In this document: positions 1 to 55,627 of the stretch, one piece after another
Layout of the letters: each line of letters opens with the position of its first letter
Position numbering within the stretch: position 1 is the first letter of the stretch
Source of the DNA: Panopea generosa
Taxonomy: Eukaryota; Mollusca; Bivalvia; Adapedonta; Hiatellidae
Reading direction: 5' to 3'
Assembly (NCBI GenBank): GCA_029582155.1
Contig: CM055896.1
Location: 23,527,184 to 23,591,183, forward strand
DNA: 64,000 nt
Program-made: the position numbers and the translations under genes
The notes under the pieces: model-generated
Told to the model about the DNA's origin: nothing
Databases searched by the model: none
The model's input: only the letters and a program-made list of their open reading frames with translations

Positions 1-3000
1 TCATGGTTGATATAGATCAGATATAGAGTGTCTCATGGTTGATATAGATCAGATATAAGGTGTCTCATGGTTGATATAGATCAGATATAGGTTGTCTCAT
101 GGTTGATATAGATCAGATATAAGGTGTCTCATGGTTGATATATATCAGATATAGGATGTCTCATGATTAATTTAGATATGATATAGGGTGTCTCATGGTT
201 GATTTAGATCAGATATAGGGTGTCTCATGGTTGATATAGATCATATATAGTGTGTCTCATGGTTGATATAGATCATATATAGAGTGTCTCATGGTTGATA
301 TAGATCAGATATAGGGTGTCTCATGGTTGATATAGATCAGATATAAGGTGTCTCATGGTTGATATAGGGTGTCTCGTGGTTGATTTAGATCAGATATAGG
401 GTGTCTCATCATTGATATAGGGTGTCTCATGGTTGATTTAGATCAGATATAGGGTGTCTCATGGTTGATTTAGATCAGATATAAGGTGTCTAATGGTTGA
501 TTTAGATCAGATATAGGGTGTCTCATGGTTGATATAGATCATATATAGTGTGTCTCATGGTTGATTTAGATCAGATATAGAGTGTCTCATGGTTGATATA
601 GATCAGATATAGAGTGTCTCATGGTTGATATAGATCAGATATAAGGTGTCTCATGGTTGATATAGATCAGATATAGGGTGTCTCATGGTTAATTTAGATC
701 ATATATAGGGTGTCACATGGTTGATATAGATCAGATATAGAGTGATTCATGGTTGATATAGATCAGATATAAGGTGTCTCATGGTTGATATAGATCAGAT
801 ATAGGATGTCTCATGATTAATTTAGATCAGATATAGGGTGTCTCATGGTTGATTTAAATCAGATAGAGGGTGTCTCATGGTTGATATAGATCATATATAG
901 TGTGTCTCATGGTTGATAGAGATCATATATAGAGTGTCTCATGGTTGATATAGATCAGATATAGAGTGTCTCATGGTTGATATAGATCAGATATAGAGTG
1001 TCTCATGGTTGATATATATCAGATATAAGGTGTCTCATGGTTGATATAAATCAGATATAGGGTGTCTCATGGTTAATTTAGATCATATATAGGGTGTTTC
1101 ATGGTTGATATAGATCAGATATAGAGTGATTCATGGTTGATATAGATCAGATATAAGGTGTCTCATGGTTGATATAGATCAGATATAAGGTGTCTCATGG
1201 TTGATATAGATCAGAAATAGGATGTCTCATGATTAATTTAGATCAGATATAGGGTGTCTCATGGTTGATTTAAATCAGATATAGTGTGTCTCATGGTTGA
1301 TATAGATCATATATAGTGTGTCTCATGGTTGATATAGATCATATATAGAGTGTCTCATGGTTGATATAGATCAGATATAGGGTGTCTCATGGTTGATATA
1401 GATCAGATATAGGGTGTCTCATGGTTGATATAGGGTGTCTCGTGGTTGATTTAGATCAGATATAGGGTGTCTCATCATTGATATAGGGTGTCTCATGGTT
1501 AATTTAGATCAGATATAGGGTGTCTCATGGTTGATATAGATCAGATATAGGGTGTCTCATGGTTAATTTAGATCAGATATAGAGTGTCTCATGGTTGATA
1601 TAGATCAGATATAAGGTGTCACGTGGTTGATATAGATCAGATATAGGATGTCTCATGGTTGATTTAGATCAGATATAGGGTATCTCATGGTTGATATAGA
1701 TCATATATAGTGTGTCTCATGGTTGATATAGATCAGATATAGGGTGTCTCATGGTTGATATAGATCATATATAAGGTGTCTCATGATTAATTTAGATATG
1801 ATATAGGGTGTCTCATGGTTGATTTAGATCAGATATAGGGTGTCTCATGGTTGATATAGATCATATATAGTGTGTCTCATGGTTGATATAGATCATATAT
1901 AGAGTGTCTCATGGTTGATATAGATCAGATATAGGGTGTCTCATGGTTGATATAGATCAGATATAAGGTGTCTCATGGTTGATAAAGGGGGGGCTCGTGG
2001 TTGATTTAGATCAGATATAGGGTGTATCATCATTGATATAGGGTGTCTCATGGTTGATTTAGATCAGATATAGGGTGTCTCATGGTTGATTTAGATCAGA
2101 TATAGGTTGTCTCATGGTTGATATAGATCATATATAGTGTGTCTCATGGTTGATATAGATCATATATAGAATGTCTCATGGTTGATATAGATCAGATATA
2201 GAGTGTCTCATGGTTGATATAGATCAGATATAAGGTGTCTCATGGTTGATATAGATCAGATATAGGGTGTCTCATGGTTAATTTAGATCATATATAGGGT
2301 GTCACATGGTTGATATAGATCAGATATAGAGTGATTCATGGTTGATATAGATCAGATATAAGGTGTCTCATGGTTGATATAGATCAGATATAAGGTGTCT
2401 CATGGTTGATATATATCAGATATAGGATGTCTCATGATTAATTTAGATCAGATATAGGGTGTCTCATGGTTGATTTAAATCAGATAGAGGGTGTCTCATG
2501 GTTGATATAGATCATATATAGTGTGTCTCATGGTTGATAGAGATCATATATAGAGTGTCTCATGGTTGATATAGATCATATATAGAGTGTCTCATGGTTG
2601 ATATAGATCAGATATAGAGTGTCTCATGGTTGATATATATCAGATATAAGGTGTCTCTTGGTTGATATAAATCAGATATAGGGTGTCTCATGGTTAATTT
2701 AGATCATATATAGGGTGTCTCATGGTTGATATAGATCAGATATAGAGTGATTCATGGTTGATATAGATCAGATATAAGGTGTCTCATGGTTGATATAGAT
2801 CAGATATAGGGTGTCTCATGGTTGATATAGATCAGAAATAGGATGTCTCATGATTAATTTAGATCAGATATAGGGTGTCTCATGGTTGATTTAAATCAGA
2901 TATAGTGTGTCTCATGGTTGATATAGATCATATATAGTGTGTCTCATGGTTGATATAGATCATATATAGAGTGTCTCATGGTTGATATAGATCAGATATA

Positions 3001-3776
3001 GGGTGTCTCATGGTTGATATAGATCAGATATAAGGTGTCTCATGGTTGATATAGGGTGTCTCGTGGTTGATTTAGATCAGATATAGGGTGTCTCATCATT
3101 GATATAGGGTGTCTCATGGTTGATTTAGATCAGATATAGGGTGTCTCATGGTTGATATAGATCAGATATATGGTGTCTCATGGTTAATTTAGATCATATA
3201 TAGGGTGTCTCATGGTTGATATAGATCATATATAGAGTGTCTCATGGTTGATATGGATCAGATATATAGTGTCTCATGGTTGATATAGATCAGATATATG
3301 GTGTCTCATGGTTGATATAGATCAGATAAAGGGTGTCTCATGGTTAATTTAGATCATATATAGGGTGTCTCATGGTTGATATAGATCAGATATAGAGTGT
3401 CTCATGGTTGATATAGATCAGATATAAGGTGTCTCATGGTTGATATAGATCAGATATAGGATGTCTCATGGTTGATTTAGATCAGATATAGGGTATCTCA
3501 TGGTTGATATAGATCATATATAGTGTATCTCATGGTTGATATAGATCATATATAGAGTGTCTCATGGTTGATATAGATCAGATATAGGGTGTCTCATGGT
3601 TGATATAGATCAGATATAAGGTGTCTCATGGTCGATATAGGGTGTCTCGTGGTTGATTTAGATCAGATATAGGGTGTCTCATCATTGATATAGGGTGTCT
3701 CATGGTTGATTTAGATCAGATATAGAGTGTCTCATGGTTGATGTAGATAAGATATAGGATGTCTCATGGTTGATAT
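1..3776. repeat. 32-bp satellite array (left edge)
   Basis: About 117 tandem units of a 32-bp AT-rich monomer whose core reads TCATGGTTGATATAGATCAG followed by ATATAGGGTGTC. Units start at 1, 33, 65 and so on. Variants include TTTAGATC for ATAGATC, CATATATAG for CAGATATAG, and a shortened 21-bp unit that lacks the middle ATC...TAG segment (for example near 361, 1427, 1981, 3048 and 3640). Stop codons are frequent and no reading frame stays open. The array is already running at base 1, so its true left end lies outside the window. It ends near 3776, where complex sequence begins at TGTTCACTTG. No coding function is visible. Confidence 0.97.
161..3400. repeat. ~1.62-kb higher-order repeat in the 32-bp array
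   Basis: Diagnostic variant units recur at a constant offset. The unit with TTTAGATATGATATAG occurs at 161 and 1781 (offset 1620). The shortened unit followed by TCGTGGTTGATTTAG occurs at 361 and 1981 (offset 1620), and at 1427 and 3048 (offset 1621). The order of variants between these markers also matches. The array therefore grew by duplication of ~50-unit blocks, giving about two blocks plus partial copies on each side. Confidence 0.85.
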
Positions 3777-7796: not shown

Positions 7797-8009
7797 CATA
7801 CGCCTATGTTGTCAGAGGGGTTTTCTTGTGATGTCTTTTGATTTATTGCCATGTCTTGTTTATTTTCCTTTTGTTTACTCCTTTCATGTCTTGTCTAATA
7901 TAAATTCCCTCAATTCGTTATTTCTCCACACTCATGTGCTACGTAAATTAAAATGAGTCCGTCGTGCCGATAAGGAAAATAATTGACACGACGGTCGTGC
8001 CGATAGCCT

Positions 8010-9425
8010 TGTCCTTAATATTTGTCCATTCATTCCTGCCAACTCGCTCGGGAATTATCGGATTTAGGATAGTTGTTTTGTTGAATTTATCACGGGACGC
8101 GATTTACCGACAAGAACATTCTGACTGTAAAACACGCATTTCAGAAGCAGAAAAAAAAAACATATTTCTCAACAAAAAGTTCATAAAATAACTTTATTTA
8201 TATGATAGCATTTCAATAATCAGTGTCTTTAAAGATAACAGTCAGTATACTTTATATACTCATCGAATCTACACGTATATAACTAAATCACCACTACATT
8301 ATCTCTATCGCTTAAATGAAGTAACGGTTTACATTTGCAGTTTTTTATCTAATTTCAGTAAACATAGATTGTTCTTAGACAACCGATTACAAATTAAAAT
8401 GTTCTTGTATGTGTTTTGATAATTGTAAATAGCATACAAACACATCTAAAAGATACAACACAAACAAAGTTAGACATGAATACACCTTCTGTCTTTTAAT
8501 TCATAAACATCATCGATGTTAGTGATTGAGAATAACCTACCACATTTAGTTCAACACAAGTAGAGGGTGAGTGTTTACTGTTTGATTTGTTAAATTTGAA
8601 CAATAACTATTAATAATTTACTTGTTTAATGGAAATACAATTCCAAAACTAGCAATGTGTGTCTTTCACTCATGAATTCAATACACTTTACTACTCACGT
8701 CTCGTTCTGACACTTCGTCCTAGCATTTATTCATAGCTCGAAACAGGTTTTACTTTCCTATTTAAAGGACAGTAAAGGAGTATCGTGTGTACTGCCTATT
8801 ACAGATTACTGACTCAGGCGAACATAGATCGTGTGTTGAGAAACAATTGCATAATGTTGTGTATGAACATATATTTTTTGCTTGATTGAAGATTGTCTCA
8901 TATATGTACCATATGTATTGGGCGACCTCGTGTGGGGGCATATTTTGTTGAATATGAAAATCAAAGCAAAATGCCTGTTATTATTTATATTTTTATTTTA
9001 CTCCTTAAATTAAGGTGCTGATCCAGTGTTACTCTAACTTACTGCTGAAGTCAACTCTAGTGGGACATACGTGACTGAGTTTCATAGTGCATTAATAATA
9101 AAACTGACTCTGATCATTTCAGTTCTTGTTTGCGTTTTAATCTTACAAGGAATCGTTTTCTATAGTAAAATGTCCCTAGTCCATATTCCAAGAATACAAC
9201 GATTCTTCATAATACATGTACATGTCCGTATGACCTACTCTAAATCCCACAGCATTTGGTGTCTTTGCTTTTCTATTGAAAATTTGACGTCAATCTTAAT
9301 GACTATGTATCATTTTTACTGCAACCATACTGAACAGAAATATGGAGCTATTTCTGATGTGTAGGTATTTCGAAAAACTGATGTCAGCTAATATGTACTA
9401 AACACATAACATGTTATATTATTGA
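8010..9425. other. AT-rich non-coding stretch, no gene recognised
   Basis: Complex sequence between the inverted-repeat element and the 66-bp array. The longest frame (about 97 codons, 9071-9364, plus) has a hydrophobic start but no recognisable domain, and nothing indicates it is a gene. Confidence 0.6.
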
Positions 9426-11600
9426 AGAAATGTGCCTCTATATGGAGTGTCTGTATTAATAATCTTGTATTACACAATATATAAGTAACACATAAATGTG
9501 CCTCTATATGGAATGTCTGTACCAATAATCCTGTATTACACAATGTATATGTAACACATAAATGTGCCTCTATATGGAGTGTCTGTACCAATAATCGTGT
9601 ATTACACGATGTATATGTAACACATAAATGTGCCTCTATATGGAGTGTCTGTACCAATAATGCTGTATTACACAATGTATATGTAACACATAAATGTGCC
9701 TCTATATGGAGTGTCTGTACCAATAATCGTGTATTACACGATGTATATGTAACACATGAATGTGCCTCTATATGGAGTGTCTGTACCAATAATCCTGCAT
9801 TACACGATGTAAAAGTAACACATAAATGTGCCCCTATATGGAGTGTCAGTACCAATAATCCTGTATTACACGATGTATATGTAACACATAAATGTGCCCC
9901 TATATGGAGTGCCGTACCAATAATCCTGTATTACACAATGTATATGTAACACATGAATGTGCCATTATATGGAGTGTCTGTACCAATAATCCTGTATTAC
10001 ACGATGTAAAAGTAACACATAAATGTGCCCCTATATGGAGTGCCTGTACCAATAATCCTGTATTATACAATTTATATGTAACACATAAATGTGCCCCTGT
10101 ATGGAGTGTCTGTACCAATAATCCTGCATTACACAATGTATATGTAACACATACATGTGCCCCTATATGGAGTGTCTGTACCAATAATCCTGTATTACAC
10201 AATGTATATGTAACACATAAATGTGCCTATATATGGAGTGTCTGTACCAATAATCTTGCATTACACAATGTATATGTAACACATTAATGTGCCTATATAT
10301 GGAGTGCCTGTACCAATAATCCTGTTTTACACAATTTATATGTAACACATAAATGTGCCTCTATATGGAGTGTCTGTATCAATAATCATGTATTTCACAA
10401 TGTATATGTAACACATAAATGTGCCTCTATATGGAGTGCCTGTACCAATAATCTTGTATTACACAGTGTATATGTAACACATAAATGTGCCTCTATATGG
10501 AGTGTCTGTACCAATAATCCTATATTACAGAATGTATATTTTTTTTATTTGAGGTAACACATAAATGTGCCTCTATATGGAGTGTTTGTATCAATAATCC
10601 TGTATTACACAATGTATATGTAACACATAAATGTGCTTCTATATGGGGTGTCTGTACCAAAATCGTGTATTACACAATGTATATGTAACACATAAATGTG
10701 CCTCTATATGGAGTGTCTGTACCAATAATATTGTATTACACAATGTATATGTAACACATAAATGTGCCTCTATATGGAGTGTCTGTACCAATAATATTGT
10801 ATTACATAATGTATATGTAACACATAAATGTGTCTATATATGGAGTGTCTGTACCAATAATACTGTATTATATAATGTATATGTAACACATAAATGTGCC
10901 TCTATATGGAGTGTCTGTACCAATAATCCTGTATTACATAATATATATGTAACACATAAATGTGCCTCTATATGGAGTGTCTGTACCAATAATCCTGTAT
11001 TACATGATATATATGTAACACATAAATGTGCCTCTATATGGAGTGTTTCTACCAATAATATTGTATTACACAATGTTTATGTAACACATAATTGTGTCTC
11101 TATATGGAGTGTATGTACCAATAATCGTGTATTACATAATGTATATGTAACACATAAATGTGCCTCTATATGGAGTGTCTGTACTAATAATCGTTTATTA
11201 CATAATGTATATGTAACACATAAATGTGCCTCTATATGGAGTGTCTGTACTAATAATCGTTTATTACATAATGTACATGTAACACATAAATGTGCCTCTA
11301 TATGGAGTGTCTGTACTAATAATCTTGTATTACACGATGTATATGTAACACATAAATGTGCCTATATATGGAGTGTCTGTACTAATAATCTTGCAAAACA
11401 TAATGTATAATTTATGTAACTCATAAATTTGCCTCTATATGGAGTTTCTGTACTAATAATCGTGTATTACACGATGTATATGAAACACATAAATGTGCCT
11501 CTAGTTGGAGTGTCTCTACTAATAATCTTGAATTACACAATGTATTTTTAACACAAACATGTGCCTCTATATGGAGTGTCTCTGTCCCTCTATATGGAGT
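9426..11600. repeat. 66-bp satellite array (first family)
   Basis: About 33 tandem units of 66 bp with core TGTGCCTCTATATGGAGTGT, then CTGTACCAATAATCCTGTAT, then TACACAATGTATATGTAACA and CATAAA. Copies start at 9431 and 9497 and continue at 66-bp steps. Because 66 is a multiple of three, a 22-residue motif (WSVCTNNPVLHNVYVTHKCA-like) reads open on the plus strand and another motif reads open on the minus strand. Unit differences mostly change amino acids and stops break the frames, so I treat these as chance frames and not a gene. One unit near 10531-10555 carries a T-rich insertion. The array passes directly into the 63-bp family. Confidence 0.95.
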
Positions 11601-11604
11601 GTCT

Positions 11605-12900
11605 GTATTAACACATGGCATGTGACACTACCTAAACATAATCCAGACGTTTACAAGCATATCTCTTCATGTAACACATGGCATGTGACGCTACCTAAAC
11701 ATAATAAAGACGTTGACAAGTACAGCTCTACATGTAACACATGGCATGTGACGCTACCTAAACATAATCCAGACGTTGAAAAGAAAAGCTCTACATGTAA
11801 CAAATGACATGTGACACTACCATAACATAATTCAGACGTTGACAAGAAATGCTCTACATGTAACACATGACGTGTGACACTACCAAAACATAATCCAGAC
11901 GTTGACTAGTACAGCTCTACATGTAACACATGACATGTGACAATACTAAAACATAATCCAGACGTTGAAAAGTACAGCTCTACATGTAACACATGACATG
12001 TGACACTACTTAAACTTAATTCAGATGTTGACAAGAAAAACTCTACATATAATACATGACATGTGACACTACCTAAACATAATCCAGATGTTGACAAGAA
12101 AAGCTCTACATGTAACACATGACATGTGACACTACCTAAACATAATCCAAATGTTGACAAGAATAGCTCAAGATGTAACACATGGCATGTTATACTACCT
12201 AAACATAATCCAGACGTTGACAAGAAAAGCTCTACATGTAACACATGACATGTGACACTACCTAAACATAATCCAGATGTTGACAAGAATAGCTCAAGAT
12301 GTAACACATGGCATGTTATACTACCTAAACATAATCCAGATGTTGACAAGAATAGCTCTAGATGTAACACAAGACATGTGACACTACCTTAACATAATCC
12401 AGATGTTGACAAGTACAGCTCTACACGTAACACATGAAATGTGACACTACCTAAACATAATCCAGATGTTGACAAGAATATCTCTACATGTAACACATGG
12501 CGTGTGACACTAACTTAACATAATCCAGACGTTGACAAGAGTAGCTCTACATGTAACACATGGCATGTGACACTACCTAAATATAATCCAGACGTTGACA
12601 ATTACAGCTCTACATGTAACACATGGCATGAGACACTACCTAAACATAATCTAGACGTTGACAAGAATATCTCTATATATAACACATGGCATATGACACT
12701 TCCTAAATTTAATCAAGACATTGAAAAGTACAGCTCTATACGTTGACTATATCAATATATATATAACATTGCATGTGACACTACCACAACATTATCTCAA
12801 CGTTGACAAGTATAGCTGTATATATAACACATGGAATGTGACACTATCTAAAAATAATCCAAATGTTAACAAGTACAGCTCTATGTATAACAATTGACAA
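11605..12900. repeat. 63-bp array, left subfamily (CTACATGTAACACATG type)
   Basis: Units here end in AGCTCTACATGTAACACATG instead of AGCTGTATATATAACACC, and many have GACAAGAAAAGC or GACAAGAATAGC. Sequence between units is variable and frame-breaking indels occur. This subfamily keeps the ATGTAACACAT core shared with the 66-bp family on its left. Confidence 0.85.
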
Positions 12901-14580
12901 GTGACACTACCTAAACATAATCCATTAGTTGACAAGAATATCTCATATATAACACATGGCATGTGACACTACCTAAATATAATCAAGACGTCGACAACTA
13001 CATTTCTATATATAACACATGGCATGTGACAACTACCTCAACAAAATCCTGAGGTTGACAAGAATAGCTCTATATATAACACATGGCATGTGGCACTCCC
13101 GAAACATAATCCAGACGTAGACAAGAATAGCTCTATATATAACACATGGCATGTTGCACTCCCGAAACATAATCCAGACGTAGACAAGAATAGCCCTATA
13201 TATAATACATCGCATGTGACACGATCTAAAAATAATCCAGACGTTGACAAGAATAGGTCATATATAACACATGACTTGTGGCACTACCTAAGCATAAGCC
13301 AAAACTTCACAAGTACAGCTCTATATGTGTAACAAATGGCACGTGACACTACCTAAACATAATCAAAACGTTGATAAGTACAGCTCTATGTATAACACAT
13401 GCCATGTGACACTACCACAACATAATCCAGATGTTGACAAGTAAAGCTCTATATATAATACATGGCATGTGACATTTCCTGAACATAATCAAGAAGTCGT
13501 TGACAAGTACAGCATTATATATAACACATGACATGTGACACTACCTAAACATAATCTAGACAGTGACAAGAATAGCTATATATATATAACAGATTGCATA
13601 TTACACTACCTTAACATAAGCCAGACATTGACAAGTACAGCTCTATATATGCAACACATGGCATGTGATACTACCTAAACATAATCCAAACATTGATAAT
13701 TACAGCTCTATATATAACACATGGCATGTGACACTACCTCAAAATAATCCAGACGTTGACTAGTATAGCTCTATATATAACACATGACATGTGACACAAC
13801 CTAAACATAATCCAGACATTAACAATAATAGCTAATTATATAACACATTGCATGTGACACTACCTAAACATAATCCAGACGTTGATAAGAATAACTCTAT
13901 ATATAACACATGACATGTGACACTACCTAAACATAATCCAGAAGTTGACAATTGCATATTTATATATAACATATGTCATGTGACACTACCAAAACATAAT
14001 CTAGACTTTGACAAGTACAGCTCTATATATAACACATGAAATATGACTCTACCTAAATATCATCCAGACACTGACAAGTACAGCTGTATATATAACACCT
14101 GACATGTGACACTCCCTAAACATAATTGACAAGAATAGCTCTGTATATAACACCTGACATGTGACACTCCCTCAACATAATTGGCAAAAATAGCTCTATA
14201 TATAACACATGACATGTGACACTGCCTAAACATAATCCAGATTTAAACAAGTACACCTGTATATATAACACCTGGCATGTGACACTCCCTAAACATAATT
14301 GACAAGAATACCTCTATATGTAACACATGATATGTGATAGCTACCTAAACATAATTCAGACGTTGACAAGTACAGCTGTATATAAAACACCTGGCATGTG
14401 ACACTACCTAAACATATTCCATACGTTGACAAGTACAATTGTATATAAATCATCTGGCATGTGACACTACCTAACCATAATCCAGATTTTGACATGTACA
14501 GCTGTATATATAGCACCTGGCATGTGACACTTCCTTAACATAATCCAGACGTTGACATGTATAGCTGTATATATAACACC
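12900..14580. repeat. 63-bp array, degenerate middle zone
   Basis: Units are diverged, with frequent single-base indels, shortened units (for example around 14120-14190, where the CCAGACGT segment is missing), and mixed AACACATGGC/AACACCTGGC junctions. It lies between the left subfamily and the homogeneous core. Confidence 0.8.
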
Positions 14581-15420
14581 TCGCATGTGACACTACCTAA
14601 ACATAATCCAGACGTTGACAAGTACAGCTGTATATATAACACCTGGCATGTGAAACTACCTTAACATAATCCAGACGTTGACAAGTACAACTGTATATAT
14701 AACACCTCGCATGTGACACTACCTAAACATAATCCAGACGTTGACAAGTACAGCTGTATATATAACACCTGGCATGTGACACTACCTCAACATAATCCAG
14801 ACGTTGACATGTACAGCTGTATATATAACACCTGGCATGTGACACTACCTAAACATAATCCAGACGTTGACAAGTACAGCTGTATATATAACACCTGGCA
14901 TGTGACACTATCTAAACATAATCCAGACGTTGACATGTACAGCTGTATATATAACACCTGGCATGTGACACTACCTAAACATAATCCAGACGTTGACAAG
15001 TACAGCTGTATATATAACACCTGGCATGTGACACTATCTAAATATAATCCAGACGTTGACATGTACAGCTGTATATATAACACCTGGCATGTGACACTAC
15101 CTAAACATAATCCAGACGTTGACAAGTACAGCTGTATATATAACACATGGCATGTGACACTACCTAAACATAATCCAGACGTTGACAAGTACAGCTGTAT
15201 ATATAACACCTGGCATGTGACACTATCTAAACATAATCCAGACGTTGACAAGTACAGCTGTATATATAACACCTGGCATGTGACACTACCTAAACATAAT
15301 CCAGATTTTGACAAGTACAACTGTATATATAACGCCTGGAATGTGGTACTACCTAAACATAATCCAGACGTTGACAAGTACAGTTGTATATATAACACCT
15401 GGCATGTGACACAACCTAAA
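14580..15420. repeat. 63-bp array, first homogeneous run
   Basis: About 13 nearly identical units, with alternating GACAAGTACAGC and GACATGTACAGC forms, which suggests a partial 126-bp dimer. The run is open on plus (14713-15429) and on minus (14787-15398). It ends at a spacer unit beginning ACATAATTGACAAGAATAGC at about 15419. Confidence 0.85.
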
Positions 15421-15524
15421 CATAATTGACAAGAATAGCTCTATATGTAACACATGATATGTGATAGCTACCTAAACATAATCCAGACGTTGACAATTAC
15501 AGCTGTATATATAACACCTGGCAT

Positions 15525-18276
15525 GTGACACTACCTAAACATAATCCAGACCTTGACAAGTACAGCTATATATACAACACCTGGCTTGTGACACTACCTA
15601 AACATCATCCAGATTTTGACAAGTACAACTGTGTATATAACACCTGGCATGTGACACTACCAAAACATAATCCACACGTTGACATGTACAGCTGTATATA
15701 TAACACCTCGCATGTGACACTACCTAAACATAATCCAGATTTTGACATGTACAGCTGCATATATAACACCTTGCATGTGAAACTACCTAAACATAATCCA
15801 CACGTTGACATGTACAGCTGTATATATAACACCTCGCATGTGACACTACCTAAACATAATCCAGATTTTGACAAGTACAACTGTATATATTACACCTGGC
15901 ATGTGGCACTACCTAAACATAATCCAGACGTTGACAAGTACAGCTGTATATATAACACCTGGCATGTGACACAACCTAAACATAATTGACAAGAATAGCT
16001 CTATATGTAACACATGATATGTGATAGCTACCTAAACATAATCCAGACATTGACAAGTACAGCTGTATATATAACACCTGGCATGCGACACTTCCTAAAC
16101 ATAATCCAGACGTTGACAGGTACAGCTATATATACAACACCTGGCATGTGACACTACCTAAACATCATCCAGATTTTGACAAGTACAACTATGTATATAA
16201 CACCTGGCATGTGACACTACCTAAACATATTCCAGACGTTGACATGTACAGCTGTATATATAACACCTGGCATGTGACACTACCTAAACATATTCCAGAC
16301 GTTGACAACCACAGCTGTATATATAACACCTGGCATGTGACACTACCTAAACAAATTCCAGATTTTGACAAGTACAACTGTTTATATAACACCTGGCATG
16401 TGACACTACCTAAACATAATCTAGACGTTGACATGTACAGCTGTATATATAACACCTGGTATGTGACACTACCTAAACATATTCCAGACGTTGACATGCA
16501 CAGCTGTATATATAACACCCGGCATGTGACACTACATAAACATAATCTAGACGTTGACATGACCAGCTGTATATATAACACCTGGCATGTGACACTACCT
16601 GAACATCATCCAGATTTTGACAAGTACAACTATGTATATAACACCTGGCATGTGAAACTACCTAAACATAATCCAGATTTTGACAAGTACAACTGTATAT
16701 ATAACACCTGGCATGTGACACTACCTAAACATATTCCAGACGTTGACAACCACAGCTGTATATATAACACCTGGCATGTAACACTACCGAAATATAATCC
16801 AGATTTTGACAAGTACAACTGTATATATAACACCTGGCATGTGAAACTACCTTAACATAATCTAGACGTTGACATGTACAGTTGTATATATAACACCTCG
16901 CATGTAACACTTCCTAAACAAAATCCAGATTTTGACAAGTACAACTATGTATATAACACCTGGCATGTGACACTACCTAAACATAATCCAGATTTTGACA
17001 AGTACAACTGTATATATAACACCTGGCATGTGACACTACCTAAACATATTCCAGACGTTGACAACCACAGCTGTATATATAACACCTGGCATGTAACACT
17101 ACTTAAATATAATCCAGATTTTGACAAGTACAACTGTATATATAACACCTGGCATGTGAAACTACCTAAACATAATCTAGACGTTGACATGTACAGCTGT
17201 ATATATAACACCTGGTATGTGACACTACCTAAACATAATCTAGACGTTGACATGTACAGTTGTATATATAACACCTAGCATGTGACACTACCTAAACATA
17301 ATCTAGACGTTGACATGTACAGCTGTATATATAACACCTGGCATGTGACACTACCTAAACATAATCCAGATTTTGACAAGTACAACTGTATATATAACAC
17401 CTGGCATGTGACACTACCTAAACATAATCTAGACGTTGACATGACCAGCTGTATATGTAACACCTGGCATGTGACACTACCTAAACATAATCCAGATTTT
17501 GACAAGTACAACTGTATATATAACACCTGGCATGTGACACTACCTAAACATAATCCAGACGTTGACAAGTACAGCTGTATAAATAACACCTAGCATGTGA
17601 CACAACCTAAACATAATTGACAAGAATAGCTCTATATGTAACACATGATATGTGACACTACCTAAACATAATCCAAATGTTGACAAGTACAGCTGTATAT
17701 ATAACACCTGGCATGTGACACAACCTAAACATAATTGACAAGAATAGCTCTATATGTAACACATGATATGTGATAGCTACTTAAACATAATCCAGAGGTT
17801 GACAAGTACAGCTGTATATATACACCACCTGGCATGTGACACTACCTAAACATTATCCAGATTTTGACAAGTACAACTGTGTATATAACACCTGGCATGT
17901 AACACTACCTAAATATAATCCAGATTTTGACAAGTACAACTGTATATATAACACCTGGCATGTGAAACTACCTAAACATAATCTAGACGTTGACATGTAC
18001 AGTTGTATATATAACACCGGGCATGTAACACTACCTAAACAAATTCCAGATTTTGACAAGTACAACTGTTTATATAACACCTGGCATGTGACACTACCTA
18101 AACATAATCTAGACGTTGACATGTACAGCTGTATATATAACACCTGGTATGTGACACTACCTAAACATATTCAAGACGTTGACATGTACAGCTGTATATA
18201 TAACACCTGGCATGTGACACTACCTAAACATAATCTAGACGTTGACATGACCAGCTGTATATATAACACCTGGCAT
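15525..18276. repeat. 2752-bp higher-order repeat unit, copy 1
   Basis: The ordered series of variant monomers starting at 15525 recurs from about 18277. Markers 15981 and 18733 (spacer), and 16148 and 18900 (unit with CATCATCCAGATTTTG), are both offset by 2752. The match continues to about 16855/19607. Beyond this the right-hand copy has a net gain of about five monomers (16874 corresponds to 19941, offset 3067). Confidence 0.8.
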
Positions 18277-18899
18277 GTGACACTACCTAAACATAATCCA
18301 GACGTTGACAAGTACAGCTATATATACAACACCTGGCTTGTGACACTACCTAAACATCATCCAGATTTTGACAAGTACAACTGTGTATATAACACCTGGC
18401 ATGTGACACTACCAAAACATAATCCACACGTTGACATGTACAGCTGTATATATAACACCTCGCATGTGACACTACCTAAACATAATCCAGATTTTGACAT
18501 GTACAGCTGCATATATAACACCTTGCATGTGAAACTACCTAAACATAATCCACACGTTGACATGTACAGCTGTATATATAACACCTCGCATGTGACACTA
18601 CCTAAACATAATCCAGATTTTGACAAGTACAACTGTATATATTACACCTGGCATGTGGCACTACCTAAACATAATCCAGACGTTGACAAGTACAGCTGTA
18701 TATATAACACCTGGCATGTGACACAACCTAAACATAATTGACAAGAATAGCTCTATATGTAACACATGATATGTGATAGCTACCTAAACGTAATCCAGAC
18801 ATTGACAAGTACAGCTGTATATATAACACCTGGCATGCGACACTTCCTAAACATAATCCAGACGTTGACAGGTACAGCTATATATACAACACCTGGCAT

Positions 18900-21800
18900 G
18901 TGACACTACCTAAACATCATCCAGATTTTGACAAGTACAACTATGTATATAACACCTGGCATGTGACACTACCTAAACATATTCCAGACGTTGACATGTA
19001 CAGCTGTATATATAACACCTGGCATGTGACACTACCTAAACATATTCCAGACGTTGACAACCACAGCTGTATATATAACACCTGGCATGTGACACTACCT
19101 AAACAAATTCCAGATTTTGACAAGTACAACTGTTTATATAACACCTGGCATGTGACACTACCTAAACATAATCTAGACGTTGACATGTACAGCTGTATAT
19201 ATAACACCTGGTATGTGACACTACCTAAACATATTCCAGACGTTGACATGCACAGCTGTATATATAACACCCGGCATGTGACACTACCTAAACATAATCT
19301 AGACGTTGACATGACCAGCTGTATATATAACACCTGGCATGTGACACTACCTGAACATCATCCAGATTTTGACAAGTACAACTATGTATATAACACCTGG
19401 CATGTGAAACTACCTAAACATAATCCAGATTTTGACAAGTACAACTGTATATATAACACCTGGCATGTGACACTACCTAATCATATTCCAGACGTTGACA
19501 ACCACAGCTGTATATATAACACCTGGCATGTAACACTACCGAAATATAATCCAGATTTTGACAAGTACAACTGTATATATAACACCTGGCATGTGAAACT
19601 ACCTGAACATAATCTAGACGTTGACATGTACAGTTGTATATATAACACCTGGCATGTGACACTACCTAAACATAATCTAGACGTTGACATGTACAGCTGT
19701 ATATATAACACCTGGCATGTAACACTACCTAAACATAATCCAGATTTTGACAAGTACAACTGTATATATAACACCTGGCATGTGACACTACCTAATCATA
19801 TTCCAGACGTTGACAACCACAGCTGTATATATAACACCTGGCATGTAACACTACCGAAATATAATCCAGATTTTGACAAGTACAACTGTATATATAACAC
19901 CTGGCATGTGAAACTACCTTAACATAATCTAGACGTTGACATGTACAGTTGTATATATAACACCTCGCATGTAACACTTCCTAAACAAAATCCAGATTTT
20001 GACAAGTACAACTATGTATATAACACCTGGCATGTGACACTACCTAAACATAATCCAGATTTTGACAAGTACAACTGTATATATAACACCTGGCATGTGA
20101 CACTACCTAAACATATTCCAGACGTTGACAACCACAGCTGTATATATAACACCTGGCATGTAACACTACTTAAATATAATCCAGATTTTGACAAGTACAA
20201 CTGTATATATAACACCTGGCATGTGAAACTACCTGAACATAATCTAGACGTTGACATGTACAGTTGTATATATAACACCTGGCATGTGACACTACCTAAA
20301 CATAATCTAGACGTTGACATGTACAGCTGTATATATAACACCTGGCATGTGACACTACCTAAACATAATCCAGATTTTGACAAGTACAACTGTATATATA
20401 ACACCTGGCATGTGACACTACCTAAACATAATCTAGACGTTGACATGACCAGCTGTATATGTAACACCTGGCATGTGACACTACCTAAACATAATCCAGA
20501 TTTTGACAAGTACAACTGTATATATAACACCTGGCATGTGACACTACCTAAACATAATCCAGACGTTGACAAGTACAGCTGTATAAATAACACCTAGCAT
20601 GTGACACAACCTAAACATAATTGACAAGAATAGCTCTATATGTAACACATGATATGTGACACTACCTAAACATAATCCAAATGTTGACAAGTACAGCTGT
20701 ATATATAACACCTGGCATGTGACACAACCTAAACATAATTGACAAGAATAGCTCTATATGTAACACATGATATGTGATAGCTACTTAAACATAATCCAGA
20801 CGTTGACAAGTACAGCTGTATATATACACCACCTGGCATGTGACACTACCTAAACATTATCCAGATTTTGACAAGTACAACTGTGTATATAACACCTGGC
20901 ATGTAACACTACCTAAATATAATCCAGATTTTGACAAGTACAACTGTATATATAACACCTGGCATGTGACACTACCTAAACATAATCCAGACGTTGACAT
21001 GTACAGCTGTTTATATAACACCTGGCATGTGACACTACCTAAACATAATCCAAATTTTGACAAGTACAACTGTATATATAACACCTGGCATGTGAAACTA
21101 CCTAAACATAATCTAGACGTTGACATGTACAGTTGTATATATAACACCTGGCATGTAACACTACCTAAACAAATTCCAGATTTTGACAAGTACAACTGTT
21201 TATATAACACCTGGCATGTGACACTACCTAAACATAATCTAGACGTTGACATGTACAGCTGTATATATAACACCTGGTATGTGACACTACCTAAACATAT
21301 TCAAGACGTTGACATGTACAGCTGTATATATAACACCTGGCATGTGACACTACCTAAACATAATCTAGACGTTGATATGACCAGCTGTATATATAACACC
21401 TGGCATGTGACACTACCTAAACATCATCCAGATTTTGACAAGTACAACTATGTATATAACACCTGGCATGTGACACTACCTAAACATAATCCAGATTTTG
21501 ACAAGTACAACTGTATATATAACACCTGGCATGTGACACTACCTAAACATATTCCAGACGTTGACAACCACAGCTGTATATATAACACCTGGCATGTAAC
21601 ACTACCTAAATATAATCCAGATTTTGACAAGTACAACTGTATATATAACACCTGGCATGTGAAACTACCTTAACATAATCTAGACGTTGACATGTACAGT
21701 TGTATATATAACACCTGGCATGTAACACTTCCTAAACAAAATCCAGATTTTGACAAGTACAACTGTTTATATAACACCTGGCATGTGACACTACCTAAAC

Positions 21801-22338
21801 ATAATCTAGACGTTGACATGTACAGCTGTATATATAACACCTGGCATGTGACACTACCTAAACATAATCCAGATTTTGACAAGTACAACTGTATATATAA
21901 CACCTGGCATGTGACACTACCTAAACATAATCTAGACGTTGACATGACCAGCTGTATATATAACACCTGGCATGTGACACTACCTAAACATAATCCAGAT
22001 TTTGACAAGTACAACTGTATATATAACACCTGGCATGTGACACTACCTAAACATAATCCAGACGTTGACAAGTACAGCTGTATAAATAACACCTAGCAAG
22101 TGACACAACCTAAACATAATTGACAAGAATAGCTCTATATGTAACACATGATATGTGACACTACCTAAACATAATCCAAATGTTGACAAGTACAGCTGTA
22201 TATAAAACACCTGGCATGTGACACAACTTAAACATAATTGACAAGAATAGCTCTATATGTAACACATGATATGTGATAGCTACTTAAACATAATCCAGAC
22301 GTTGACAAGTACAGCTGTATATATACACCACCTGGCAT
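18900..22338. repeat. ~3.44-kb higher-order repeat, copy A
   Basis: The left member of a near-perfect tandem duplication. Markers at 19941, 20840 and 21692 recur at 23379, 24278 and 25130, all offset by exactly 3438. The block includes three spacer groups (around 20614, 20735 and 22116). Early monomers differ from copy B (HHPDF versus HYPDF form and a few others), so the duplication boundary probably lies near 19185, with a related older block before it. Confidence 0.85.
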
Positions 22339-25300
22339 GTGACACTACCTAAACATTATCCAGATTTTGACAAGTACAACTGTGTATATAACACCTGGCA
22401 TGTGACACTACCTAAACATAATCCAGACGTTGACATGCACAGCTGTATATATAACACCTGGCATGTGACACTACCTAAACATAATCCAGACGTTGACAAC
22501 CACAGCTGTATATATAACACCTGGCATGTGACACTACCTAAACAAATTCCAGATTTTGACAAGTACAACTGTTTATATAACACCTGGCATGTGACACTAC
22601 CTAAACATAATCTAACGTTGACATGTACAGCTGTATATATAACACCTGGTATGTGACACTACCTAAACATATTCCAGACGTTGACATGCACAGCTGTATA
22701 TATAACACCCGGCATGTGACACTACCTAAACATAATCTAGACGTTGACATGACCAGCTGTATATATAACACCTGGCATGTGACACTACCTGAACATCATC
22801 CAGATTTTGACAAGTACAACTATGTATATAACACCTGGCATGTGAAACTACCTAAACATAATCCAGATTTTGACAAGTACAACTGTATATATAACACCTG
22901 GCATGTGACACTACCTAATCATATTCCAGACGTTGACAACCACAGCTGTATATATAACACCTGGCATGTAACACTACCGAAATATAATCCAGATTTTGAC
23001 AAGTACAACTGTATATATAACACCTGGCATGTGAAACTACCTGAACATAATCTAGACGTTGACATGTACAGTTGTATATATAACACCTGGCATGTGACAC
23101 TACCTAAACATAATCTAGACGTTGACATGTACAGCTGTATATATAACACCTGGCATGTAACACTACCTAAACATAATCCAGATTTTGACAAGTACAACTG
23201 TATATATAACACCTGGCATGTGACACTACCTAATCATATTCCAGACGTTGACAACCACAGCTGTATATATAACACCTGGCATGTAACACTACCGAAATAT
23301 AATCCAGATTTTGACAAGTACAACTGTATATATAACACCTGGCATGTGAAACTACCTTAACATAATCTAGACGTTGACATGTACAGTTGTATATATAACA
23401 CCTCGCATGTAACACTTCCTAAACAAAATCCAGATTTTGACAAGTACAACTATGTATATAACACCTGGCATGTGACACTACCTAAACATAATCCAGATTT
23501 TGACAAGTACAACTGTATATATAACACCTGGCATGTGACACTACCTAAACATATTCCAGACGTTGACAACCACAGCTGTATATATAACACCTGGCATGTA
23601 ACACTACTTAAATATAATCCAGATTTTGACAAGTACAACTGTATATATAACACCTGGCATGTGAAACTACCTGAACATAATCTAGACGTTGACATGTACA
23701 GTTGTATATATAACACCTGGCATGTGACACTACCTAAACATAATCTAGACGTTGACATGTACAGCTGTATATATAACACCTGGCATGTGACACTACCTAA
23801 ACATAATCCAGATTTTGACAAGTACAACTGTATATATAACACCTGGCATGTGACACTACCTAAACATAATCTAGACGTTGACATGACCAGCTGTATATGT
23901 AACACCTGGCATGTGACACTACCTAAACATAATCCAGATTTTGACAAGTACAACTGTATATATAACACCTGGCATGTGACACTACCTAAACATAATCCAG
24001 ACGTTGACAAGTACAGCTGTATAAATAACACCTAGCATGTGACACAACCTAAACATAATTGACAAGAATAGCTCTATATGTAACACATGATATGTGACAC
24101 TACCTAAACATAATCCAAATGTTGACAAGTACAGCTGTATATATAACACCTGGCATGTGACACAACCTAAACATAATTGACAAGAATAGCTCTATATGTA
24201 ACACATGATATGTGATAGCTACTTAAACATAATCCAGACGTTGACAAGTACAGCTGTATATATACACCACCTGGCATGTGACACTACCTAAACATTATCC
24301 AGATTTTGACAAGTACAACTGTGTATATAACACCTGGCATGTAACACTACCTAAATATAATCCAGATTTTGACAAGTACAACTGTATATATAACACCTGG
24401 CATGTGACACTACCTAAACATAATCCAGACGTTGACATGTACAGCTGTTTATATAACACCTGGCATGTGACACTACCTAAACATAATCCAAATTTTGACA
24501 AGTACAACTGTATATATAACACCTGGCATGTGAAACTACCTAAACATAATCTAGACGTTGACATGTACAGTTGTATATATAACACCTGGCATGTAACACT
24601 ACCTAAACAAATTCCAGATTTTGACAAGTACAACTGTTTATATAACACCTGGCATGTGACACTACCTAAACATAATCTAGACGTTGACATGTACAGCTGT
24701 ATATATAACACCTGGTATGTGACACTACCTAAACATATTCAAGACGTTGACATGTACAGCTGTATATATAACACCTGGCATGTGACACTACCTAAACATA
24801 ATCTAGACGTTGACATGACCAGCTGTATATATAACACCTGGCATGTGACACTACCTAAACATCATCCAGATTTTGACAAGTACAACTATGTATATAACAC
24901 CTGGCATGTGACACTACCTAAACATAATCCAGATTTTGACAAGTACAACTGTATATATAACACCTGGCATGTGACACTACCTAAACATATTCCAGACGTT
25001 GACAACCACAGCTGTATATATAACACCTGGCATGTAACACTACCTAAATATAATCCAGATTTTGACAAGTACAACTGTATATATAACACCTGGCATGTGA
25101 AACTACCTTAACATAATCTAGACGTTGACATGTACAGTTGTATATATAACACCTGGCATGTAACACTTCCTAAACAAAATCCAGATTTTGACAAGTACAA
25201 CTGTTTATATAACACCTGGCATGTGACACTACCTAAACATAATCTAGACGTTGACATGTACAGCTGTATATATAACACCTGGCATGTGACACTACCTAAA

Positions 25301-25776
25301 CATAATCCAGATTTTGACAAGTACAACTGTATATATAACACCTGGCATGTGACACTACCTAAACATAATCTAGACGTTGACATGACCAGCTGTATATATA
25401 ACACCTGGCATGTGACACTACCTAAACATAATCCAGATTTTGACAAGTACAACTGTATATATAACACCTGGCATGTGACACTACCTAAACATAATCCAGA
25501 CGTTGACAAGTACAGCTGTATAAATAACACCTAGCAAGTGACACAACCTAAACATAATTGACAAGAATAGCTCTATATGTAACACATGATATGTGACACT
25601 ACCTAAACATAATCCAAATGTTGACAAGTACAGCTGTATATAAAACACCTGGCATGTGACACAACTTAAACATAATTGACAAGAATAGCTCTATATGTAA
25701 CACATGATATGTGATAGCTACTTAAACATAATCCAGACGTTGACAAGTACAGCTGTATATATACACCACCTGGCAT
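22339..25776. repeat. ~3.44-kb higher-order repeat, copy B
   Basis: The right member of the duplication. A single-base loss at about 22614 (AATCTAACGTTG against AATCTAGACGTTG) shifts the offset from 3439 to 3438 and is private to this copy. From about 22623 to 25776 it matches copy A almost base for base, including shared stops at CTACCTTAACATAATC. This implies recent unequal exchange or, less likely, an assembly duplication. Confidence 0.85.
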
Positions 25777-26990
25777 GTGACACTACCTAAACATTATCCA
25801 GATTTTGACAAGTACAACTGTGTATATAACACCTGGCATGTGACACTACCTAAACATAATCCAGACGTTGACATGCACAGCTGTATATATAACACCTGGC
25901 ATGTGACACTACCTAAACATAATCCAGACGTTGACATGTACAGCTGTATATATAACACCTGGCATGTGACACTACCTAAACATAATCCAGACGTTGACAT
26001 GTACAGCTGTATATATAACACCTGGCATGTGACACTACCTAAACATAATCCAGACGTTGACAAGTACAGCTGTATATATAACACATGGCATGTGACACTA
26101 CCTAAACATAATCCAGACGTTGACATGTACAGCTGTATATATAACACCTGGCATGTGACACTACCTAAACATAATCTAGACGTTGACATGACCAGCTGTA
26201 TATATAACACCTGGCATGTGACACTACCTAAACATAATCCAGATTTTGACAAGTACAGCTGTATATATAACACCTGGCATGTGACACTACCTAAACATAA
26301 TCCAGACGTTGACATGACCAGCTGTATATATAACACCTGGCATGTGACACTACCTAAACATAATCCAGACGTTGACATGTACAACTGTATATATAACACC
26401 TGGCATGTGACACTACCTAAACATAATCCAGACGTTGACATGTACAGCTGTATATATAACACCTGGCATGTGACACTACCTAAACATAATCCAGACGTTG
26501 ACAAGTACAGCTGTATATATAACACATGGCATGTGACACTACCTAAACATAGTCCAGACGTTGACATGTACAGCTGTATATATAACACCTGGCATGTGAC
26601 ATTACCTAAACATAATCTAGACGTTGACATGACCAGCTGTATATATAACACCTGGCATGTGACACTACCTAAACATAATCCAGATTTTGACAAGTACAAC
26701 TGTATATATAACACCTGGCATGTGACACTACCTAAACATAATCCAGATTTTGACAAGTACAACTGTATATATAACACCTGGCATTTGACACTACCTAAAC
26801 ATAATCCAGATTTTGACAAGTACAACTGTATATATAACACCTTGCATGTGAAACTACCTAAACATAATCCAGACGATGACAAGTACAACTGTATATATAA
26901 CACCTTGCATGTGAAACTACCGAAACATAATCTAGACGTTGACATGTACAGCTGTATATATAACACCTGGCATGTGCCATTCCCTCAACA
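25777..26990. repeat. 63-bp array, final homogeneous run with 441-bp repeat
   Basis: About 19 units without a spacer. A seven-monomer block recurs: the AACACATGGC variant occurs at about 26080 and 26521 (offset 441), each followed by matching GACATGTACAGC and GACATGACCAGC units. The array stops sharply near 26990 after a unit reading CATGTGCCATTCCC. Unlike the left side, there is no decayed flank. Confidence 0.85.
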
Positions 26991-27814
26991 TAAGAATAGC
27001 TCTTTATATTCATAACTATTCATGCTATGGATATTAAATGCAATTAATTAGCTTTGAACATTCATCAATGCCTTTCCCCGCAGGACATGCGTCATTTCGA
27101 TGCTCGTCATTGATTAGATATCTTCGTTAACGATGTTTTTTGACGTCTTTAACTGTTCGGTCAAGTTAAGTGGAAATATTTTGGCAGTTTGCGTGTGTAA
27201 TACACACAATCCGAATTGATAATATACTAGGTAAAATATATACATATACTAGGGTTAGCTAACCCTGTCATTTACGAAAGCGATCTCGCTACGATGTTAA
27301 TATAACTATATATGAATTTATAAAAAAAATGATATGGTGCTTGAGAAGAAAGTTTCATCTATAGAAATACAGTGAATATAATATGTTATATATCACACTA
27401 ACAAAATCCTTGTTAGTTTTATTGCTCGCTTCTCATAAAATCATGAATTATACATGAATACCATTAAACGCACAGAACAATGAAAACCATATATGCTAAA
27501 TGTCTCCAATACAACGTATGAATTGTGTAAACGTGTATACATTATACAGTTATTAAGTTGTTCAATAATATCTATACAGCAAGCTACTGCGAATGTACAG
27601 AATACTGGTAATTCCTTGTCACAGCCATTGAGTAAATACATTAACAATACTTTAAAAAAACGAGTAACAAAAACAACAACACAAAAAACAACAAACAAAA
27701 ACAACACCATGATTATACCTGAATGCAGAAAATTCAAATATTAGATCTAAATACAACTAAACGTGATAATTGTTAAATTACCATTTTTAAAATAACACCA
27801 AATATGCGCTATGG
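26991..27814. other. AT-rich non-coding stretch
   Basis: Single-copy-looking DNA after the megasatellite. It holds a perfect 16-bp palindrome AGGGTTAGCTAACCCT at 27251-27266 and an A-rich, AAC-rich tract at about 27650-27710. Two overlapping frames of 83 and 98 codons (27441-27744) lie on opposite strands. The minus one is hydrophobic, but neither has a recognisable domain. Confidence 0.6.
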
Positions 27815-28740
27815 TGTAACCGCAACCCTTAGTGTAACAAACTCAATTTTTGTTACACTAGGGGTCATAACCGCAACCCTTAGTGTAACAAAAATGGATT
27901 GTGTTACACTAAGGTTACGGATGCGACCCTTAGTGTTGTTACACTAATTGTTACACTGAGCGTATGTTTTGTACATGTATTGACATTTGATTATAAAACG
28001 GGTTCACTTAGTGTAACATTTTTCTTCAACTAGAAATTTATTTGTCCCTGCTATGAAACTGGGGCATATAGTAGTATCCATGTTCGTCCTTCCGCCCGTG
28101 CATCTATCTGATATGTTGCGCAGTGCTTCCAATATGCTTCCATTATCGAGGGGGGTTGGGGTCGAGGTTTACGGGAAAAGAGGTCAAGTTCAATTGCACT
28201 AACATTAACACAATGCATAAATACTGGTATAAGCCATACATTGTATGTGTAACAAAATAAGTTTATATAGATGTGATTTGGTGCAAAAAATCTTATTACG
28301 ACGAAAAGTATATTTTTGTTACAAACTAAGGGTTATTTATAACCGCAACAATAAGTGTAAAAAAGTTATGTTACAATACGGATTATCTATAACCGCAACC
28401 CTTAGTGTAAAAAAAATATGTTACAATACGGATTATCTATAACTGCAACCCTTAGTGTAAAAAAAGTTGTGTAACAATACGGATTATCTATAACCGCAAC
28501 CCTTAGTGTTAAAAAAGTTGTGTTACAATACGGAGTATCTATAACCGCAACCCTTAATGTAAAAAGAGTTGTGTTACAATACGGATTACCTATAAACGTA
28601 ACACTTCGTGCAACAAAATTAGTTTAATATGTGGATGTGATTTGTTGAAAAAAAGCTTTTCCTATGTAAAATATATTTTTGTTACACTAAGGGTTATTTA
28701 TAACAGCCAGCCTTAATGTAACAAAATAAGTTTTATGTTG
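27815..28740. mobile_element. Dispersed repeat family 'E', copy 1
   Basis: Begins with several CCCTTAGTGTAACAAA blocks and their inverse TTTGTTACACTAAGG (27827-27920), so the end is palindromic. A central part follows (TTTATTTGTCCCTGCTATGA, GGGGCATATAGT, TTCGTCCTTCCGCCCG), then a tandem tail. A collinear copy lies at 40950-42370. There is no transposase-like frame, so this is a non-autonomous repeat of unresolved class. Confidence 0.7.
28325..28612. repeat. 50/51-bp tandem repeat inside E copy 1
   Basis: About five units containing ATACGGATTATCTATAACCG then CAACCCTTAGTGTAAAAAAA. Units start at about 28381, 28431, 28482 and 28533. The monomer carries the family's CCCTTAGTGTAA end motif, so the array appears to have grown from one end of the element. 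Confidence 0.8.
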
Positions 28741-34382: not shown

Positions 34383-34637
34383 AGTATATAAAGATCAATT
34401 AACAAAAAATAAAACAACAACAAATATGTCATTACCAACATCAGAAGCAACAGTAATAGTTGTAACAACAACGACAATGGCAACAATTAAAGCTCTTAAG
34501 TTATGTCCGCCTAAAAATTTTCCACAAAATAGCAATTTATGGAAAATCATTTCTTTTTTGGAAAATAAATAATCTTTGTAATCTGTCGCAAATGAACAAG
34601 TGGTCACCCGACAGCATATCCTACAAATATACGTTAA

Positions 34638-35112
34638 GGCATAGTACCACCATTGCAAAAAGGAAGTGCTTCCGTGGGGTAGTCGCATAATGGCGGTTAT
34701 AAATAATCCTCAATTCTTCTTCTTTAAAAATGCATTTTCCTTATTTTAATGCTCATTTTTGTAATTGAATGGCATTATTGATGTATTTTGAACATTTTGA
34801 TAGCATTGTCATGTTTTAATTGTGAATTTAGAAAAAAAAATGATGCTTGGAAATTGGGGTATGAATTCATGATTTCGGAAGTCTACTTTCACTTTGTCAC
34901 CAGTGTACACACTGAGCAGAAAAAAAATCTCTTATATGACACATGACCCCTACTTTTCTCATCATATTTTGATAGTGCCGAGGTTGACAAACAGTAAAAT
35001 GTAGGTTTCACTTCTTTCATTTGGGATTCTCTATGAATGACAAGCCTTCAAACTTTTATTATTTACTATAGAATAAAGAACAAAAATCAATGTTGGGGTT
35101 ACACCTTAATAT
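34638..35112 (+). mobile_element. ~475-bp dispersed repeat, forward copy
   Basis: Reads GGCATAGTACCACCATTGCA at its left end and runs to the AAAGAACAAAAATCAATG region near 35090-35110. The reverse complement of the whole segment lies at 46912-47388 with roughly 90% identity by eye, including CTTCCGTGGGGTAGTCGCAT and TGACACATGACCCCTACTTT. No open frame spans it and no terminal repeat is evident. This is a dispersed element of unknown class. Confidence 0.85.
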
Positions 35113-40727: not shown

Positions 40728-40949
40728 TATTCGTGTACCAGATATAAGAATAAAGCGTATTATATGGTGTAAAGGCTGGAGCGATATATCAGGGCAGTAA
40801 TTGGGAAAATGTCATGGTCGAACAATGTGTGAAGTATGCTTTTAAATCGGCTCCGTCTGCTGTGAGAGTTTCTACAAAAAACAGCGTTTATTGCAGTCTT
40901 CTTTTCGGTATGTCTTGAAAGATGTTTAATGTTACTTACTCAAGGTAAC

Positions 40950-45447: not shown

Positions 45448-45449
45448 CT

Positions 45450-46911: not shown

Positions 46912-47388
46912 GGTTTTAGGTGTCATCCCACCATTGATTTTTGTTCTTTATTCTATAGTAAATAATAAAAGTTTGAAGGCTTGTCATTCATAGAGAGACC
47001 CAAATGAAAGAAGTGAAACCTACATTTTACTGTTTGTCAACCTATGCACTATCAAAATATGATGAGAAAAGTAGGGGTCATGTGTCATATAAGAGATTTT
47101 TTTTCTGCTCAGTGTGTTCACTGGTGACAAAGTGAAAGAAGACTTCCTAAATCATGTATTCATACCCCAATTTCCAAGCATCAATTTTTTTTTCTAAATT
47201 CACAATTCAAACATGACAATGCTGTCAAAGTGTTCAAAATACATCAATAATGCCATTCAAATAAAAAAATGAGCATTAAAATAAGGAAAATGCATTTTTA
47301 AAGAAGAAGAAATGAGGATTATTTAAAACCGCCATTATGCGACTACCCCACGGAAGCACTTCCTTTTTGCAATGGTGGTACTATGCCT
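46912..47388 (-). mobile_element. ~475-bp dispersed repeat, inverted copy
   Basis: Reverse complement of 34638-35112. It starts near AGGTGTCATCCCACCATTGA (46919) and ends at GCAATGGTGGTACTATGCC (about 47369-47387). Small indels occur in the A/T runs. The two copies face each other across about 12 kb that contains the LINE and the second 66-bp satellite. Confidence 0.85.
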
Positions 47389-55620: not shown

Positions 55621-55627
55621 AAAGGGT

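Follow-up and report, generated by a model that had tools for sequence, protein, structure and literature searches.

The stretch of DNA analysed here (the window) comprises 64,000 nucleotides of Panopea generosa contig CM055896.1. Positions 11605 to 26993 hold a tandem array of about 245 copies of a 63-bp unit, about 15 kb in length, which directly follows a second array with a 66-bp unit. The features of the two arrays are as follows.

9428–11604: 66-bp tandem array of about 32 units, abutting the 63-bp array (TRF, 9428–11581; monomer alignment).
11605–14086: diverged left edge of the 63-bp array, made up of the partial unit 11605–11665 and monomers 0–37.
14087–26993: homogenised core with irregular higher-order repeats, monomers 38–244 (nearest-monomer distances, repeated monomer runs).
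17578–17879: first of five cassettes with monomer lengths of 55, 63, 55, 64, and 65 bp.
Starts at 20582, 22081, 24020, and 25519: the further cassettes with these monomer lengths.
19046–22498: copy 1 of a block of about 55 monomers that is duplicated in tandem (compared with copy 2).
22485–25936: copy 2 of the duplication, directly after copy 1 (compared with copy 1).
25777–27015, plus strand: stop-free frame of 412 codons with a GTG start, judged non-coding (ORF listing, variant tests, null).
25794–26966, minus strand: antisense stop-free frame of 390 codons with a GTG start, judged non-coding (ORF listing, variant tests, null).

TRF reported 63-bp arrays at 11609–12738 and 12758–26993, the latter with a score of 20096. 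Monomers were delimited by wrap-around alignment of positions 11605 to 27000 to the 63-bp consensus, which gave 245 monomers from 11666 on, preceded by the partial first unit. Both methods found the megasatellite that the initial annotation had placed at 11605 to 26990, and the 245 monomers form a head-to-tail array of many similar units, as in a satellite or large minisatellite. The start-to-start interval was exactly 63 bp in 204 of 244 cases; the remaining 40 intervals measured 55 bp (16 cases), 64 bp (10), 65 bp (8), 62 bp (3), and 66, 67, and 78 bp (one each). The description of the array as almost indel-free therefore holds only between the recurring cassettes and not for the array overall.

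The consensus of the 63-bp unit is stop-free in one plus frame, as had been proposed, and in one minus frame, where one or two had been allowed for. The plus frame was open in 164 of the 174 gap-free core monomers and in 17 of the 35 gap-free left-edge monomers. The minus frames were open in 135, 24, and 8 of the core monomers, and 18 of the 35 left-edge monomers were open in the minus frame that is open in 135 core monomers. When a consensus is built from the first 16 monomers, the plus frame contains a TGA; when it is built from all gap-free left-edge monomers, that frame is open.

Over 3452 compared bases, the two copies of the duplication, each about 3.4 kb long, showed a single substitution, and copy 2 carries a frame-breaking 1-bp deletion near 22614; the duplication may be an assembly error. 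With insertions disregarded, identical runs of 34, 17, 7, and 6 monomers recurred at lags of 55, 103, 48, 44, 104, and 49 monomers, and 123 of 244 monomer sequences were distinct. The higher-order repeats had offsets of about 1.5, 1.9, 2.8, and 3.4 kb. The cassettes break the frame and recur along with the duplicated blocks. Recurrent shared stops had been listed as evidence against coding; much of that pattern fits the recurrence of these odd-length cassettes with the blocks that contain them.

Divergence along the array was examined in bins of 12 monomers. The distance to the core consensus was 9.6–14.4% in left-edge bins, the last of which extends beyond 14086, and 3.0–7.7% in core bins. 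The mean nearest-monomer distance stayed at 0–0.8% across the bins covering 15442 to 26702; it was 1.3% in the bin that starts at 14694 and 2.4% in the last one. In satellite theory, unequal exchange homogenises the interior of an array and leaves the edges behind. Block-duplication homogenisation and a diverged edge were both found here, with the right edge consisting of only one degenerate unit, the last, which carries old-type letters. The gradient is thus one-sided, and the right end is young up to that last unit, which counts against the satellite history proposed below.

Elsewhere in the window there are further tandem arrays at 1–3776 (32 bp, with 21- and 53-bp substructure), 43066–45449 (another 66-bp family, of different sequence), and 62943–63992 (complex, with periods of 32 to 206 bp). 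A dispersed repeat family with AACCGCAACCCTTAGTGTAACA-like motifs occurs at 27780–28740 and 40940–42370 (74% over 325 aligned columns), and a 51-bp tandem array lies within the first of these copies, at 28317–28618. An inverted pair, 34625–35109 and 46915–47400, is 95% identical over 486 columns and probably represents two copies of a recent transposable element. Weak reverse-transcriptase (RVT_1) matches, both below the Pfam cut-off, were found in frames at 39187–40395 (minus strand, E 1.6e-05) and 55568–55960 (plus strand, E 0.0044), which we read as putative decayed retroelement pieces. A search of the window with Rfam at gathering scores and a tRNA scan gave no match.

The overlapping antisense frames of 412 and 390 codons exist as the initial annotation gave them. 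Its statement that the starts are GTG only proved incorrect: ATG-initiated frames of 380 codons (plus strand, 25873–27015) and 383 codons (minus strand, 25794–26945) are present, and there are 22 ATG ORFs of 100 or more codons in positions 11605–27030. Because a 21-codon unit keeps its frame from one copy to the next, a stop-free unit frame stays open until a variant closes it. Among 5000 dinucleotide shuffles of the 63-bp unit, 88% had at least one open frame, 36% had exactly two, and 42% had one per strand. For an array-level null, the substitutions and indels of the array itself were imposed on 2000 shuffled units within the range 11605–27000, in which the observed frames measure 408 (plus) and 390 (minus) codons. 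The longest plus frame was matched or surpassed in 32% of the null trials and the longest minus frame in 50%; in 20% the shorter of these two frames was at least as long as observed. Only 7% of the trials gave an antisense overlap as great as the observed one, which counts against the chance explanation. When one column was removed from the unit (transitions only), frames of at least 200 codons on both strands were found in 0 of 1000 trials, versus 45.5% with 63-bp units. Since openness was at chance level in the nulls and was lost with 62-bp units, it follows from the period, and we conclude that arithmetic, namely a period divisible by three, accounts for the coding look of the array. The open frames that had been thought notable are no longer than chance for such a period. 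Nor is there support for the suggestion of something unusual, given the outcome of the codon-position test described next; the regular 63-bp period fits block-wise duplication.

Coding constraint was assessed from the variants among monomers. Every distinct variant entered the count a single time, and its effect in each of the six frames was set against that of identical changes moved to other positions with the same base; such counting is approximate because the monomers are not independent. Of the 245 monomers, the left-edge set contained 35 and the core set 174; a wider set contained 224 gap-free monomers. No set includes the degenerate last unit or any monomer with a deletion, and the core set further omits old-type monomers and those before monomer 43. 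The 174 gap-free core monomers (69 of them distinct) contained 64 distinct variants. In the core plus frame the observed (expected) numbers were 12 (14.8) synonymous, 49 (46.1) missense, and 3 (3.0) stop, and in the core minus frame they were 11 (16.8), 43 (40.6), and 10 (6.6). Third-position variants in the core numbered 16 in each frame, with 21.1 expected for the plus and 21.0 for the minus frame. The 35 left-edge monomers contained 85 variants: 20 (18.1) synonymous, 61 (63.0) missense, and 4 (4.0) stop in the plus frame, and 22 (22.1), 53 (55.7), and 10 (7.2) in the minus frame. Third positions at the left edge were slightly high in both open frames (32 vs. 29.4) and not significantly so (P 0.24 and 0.22). 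These tests of the core and left edge therefore revealed no significant third-position excess and no avoidance of stops in either open frame.

An omega-like ratio was 1.30 (0.69–2.68) for the plus frame and 1.71 (0.89–3.64) for the minus frame in the core, and 0.88 (0.53–1.53) and 1.01 (0.61–1.72), respectively, at the left edge. All four intervals span 1; those for the left edge would allow mild constraint, down to 0.53. Indels were classed in monomers 0–243 by position and total size per monomer, with five scattered inserted bases in one monomer counted as one class, and 10 of the 12 classes were not multiples of 3. The combination of a synonymous or third-position excess with in-frame indels, as in a protein-coding repeat gene, was thus not found in the array. 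No codon-level constraint was detected, and the variation looks neutral. Selection on translation, which the initial annotation had left open, receives no support in either open frame.

The synonymous deficit in the core minus frame had P = 0.013, one of 42 one-sided values. It is opposite in direction to purifying selection and is readable as diversifying. Of the 42 values for the core set, four were below 0.05 (0.013 to 0.045). Three of these four belong to closed frames, and the tests are correlated; we read the four values as noise. A reading in which both strands make overlapping antisense repeat polypeptides, unconstrained or weakly diversifying, with the adjoining 66-bp array behaving likewise, is scarcely credible to us. 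If it were true, the satellite would be a source from which long, young ORFs emerge on both strands.

Translation of the plus frame alone, with its 21-residue repeat, either into a long repetitive polypeptide or as part of a host gene in which it forms a large internal exon, might be suggested by the open frame in nearly all gap-free core monomers, by the ATG-initiated ORF of 380 codons, and by Pfam, in which the plus translation matched four unrelated families, two of them above curated cut-offs (DUF2227, E 5.9e-07, the best; and PP1). No stretch passes on its own, however, and proteins made from shuffled repeats score alike: of ten control proteins from shuffled, mutated units, shortened to 168–294 residues, all ten matched at least one family at E up to 0.1 and five were above a curated cut-off. 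The Pfam matches were therefore rejected as a real domain. Against translation there are also the synonymous share, which is not raised, the occurrence of stops at the expected number, the position of omega-like values below 0.69 outside the core interval, and the frame-breaking cassettes, which recur, duplicated with the rest. We consider a repeat protein very improbable indeed. The minus translation matched no Pfam family. In a PDB search the plus frame matched seven sequences labelled RPB1 or DNA-directed RNA polymerase subunit (E 0.083–0.94), presumably through the repetitive tail of the largest RNA polymerase subunit, and the minus frame had no match up to E 1. A recognisable domain, as a repeat gene might have, was thus found in neither translation with Pfam or PDB. 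An exact 20-base search with part of the 63-bp unit gave no match in prokaryote genome contigs and one match in viral contigs (L001); the latter was dismissed as a chance match, the 63-bp array being absent in 261 of 1895 bases around it.

The adjoining 66-bp unit was compared with the 63-bp unit. Its consensus likewise has one open frame on each strand, and the array at 9428–11604 holds ORFs of 259 (plus) and 155 (minus) codons. Between the 66-bp unit and the unit of the first 16 monomers there is a common stretch of 28 columns (local score 29, P = 0.003, 2000 shuffles) around a CACAT-n-ATGTG quasi-palindrome; the core unit shares 14 columns (P = 0.04, 2000 shuffles). A common origin of the two units, or a shared amplification seed, is possible on this resemblance. 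The shared stretch, together with the higher-order structure of the array, might also point to a function at the sequence level, such as protein binding at a conserved box of the satellite. Yet stretches of 9, 13, and 17 columns were not extra conserved among left-edge monomers (permutation P 0.31, 0.87, and 0.88) or in the 66-bp array (P 0.15, 0.28, and 0.17), and we regard such a function as distinctly improbable. The least-conserved 13-column stretch of the 66-bp unit was nominally low (P 0.028). Short conserved motifs are described at monomer junctions of nematode satellites in the portion of PMC3694981 consulted.

The array might instead be the repeat part of a Helentron/HINE-type mobile element that carried and seeded it. 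Satellite-like arrays carried inside such elements are described in Crassostrea gigas (PMC7492417, in the portion consulted), and the 63-bp array resembles them in being a tandem array amid mobile-element fragments, in a window with many tandem arrays and some retroelement fragments. The 63-bp array differs from them, as far as that portion describes the elements, in that the left and right modules that define the element were not recognised at its flanks. A 12-nt inverted match does join the flanks (9211–9222 and 27981–27970), but it is at chance level (24.3 bits; in 30 shuffles the mean best was 24.3 and the maximum 32.2). There was no inverted repeat of at least 10 nt wholly within the 60 bp after the last repeat and no microsatellite beside the left end in the TRF listing, and when the masked window was compared with itself, the flanks at about 8007–9427 and 26994–27779 had no match at E 1e-3. 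Thus, of the subterminal inverted repeats, left microsatellite, and right palindrome of HINE elements, none was found above chance; repeats of 11–12 bp are too short to stand out at a single locus. We consider an origin within such an element unlikely.

The array most likely belongs to a known kind, the noncoding satellite. We put at roughly 94% the probability that it is a noncoding satellite (a large minisatellite) whose openness is fortuitous, in agreement with the leaning of the initial annotation. In the history that we propose, a 63-bp unit would have been amplified in tandem, and blocks of several monomers would then have been repeatedly duplicated and homogenised, with unequal crossing-over or replication slippage as the most likely mechanism. 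The outcome would be the diverged left edge, the homogeneous core with irregular higher-order repeats, and the one degenerate right-edge unit. The consensus happens to lack a stop in one frame per strand, which leaves frames open across runs of full-length copies. The near-identical duplication, the odd-length cassettes, the diverged left edge, and the homogeneous core fit unequal crossing-over, and we infer that unequal exchange was the homogenising process and that the array is not translated. The anatomy of the array, its block duplications, the chance level of its openness, and the lack of detectable codon-level constraint are direct observations.

The locus neatly illustrates what appears to be the homogenisation of a satellite in blocks, and it calls for caution in annotation. 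When the period of an array is divisible by three, ATG-started frames hundreds of codons long can arise on both strands by chance alone, and such frames can carry significant-looking Pfam scores. Annotation pipelines should mask multiple-of-three arrays or run a codon-variation test.

That repeats generate long open frames is an old idea, said to go back to Ohno. Surface-protein genes of yeast contain in-frame megasatellites, which are located inside the genes. The 63-bp array resembles these in having a tandem motif with a length that is a multiple of three and a long open frame; unlike these intragenic repeats, it has no visible codon-level constraint. Among the matches listed in our literature searches on open frames in tandem repeats, which consisted of titles and the beginnings of abstracts, none concerned this array. 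At human Xp22.33, a 61-bp VNTR array of 18 kb, whose irregular higher-order repeats measure 1.6 and 2.5 kb, is described in the portion of PMC2588610 consulted. Its unit is not a multiple of three, and the likeness is one of description. As far as that description goes, the two arrays are similar in unit size, total length, and irregular higher-order repeats, and the Xp22.33 array is the nearest published analogue among those met in the searches.
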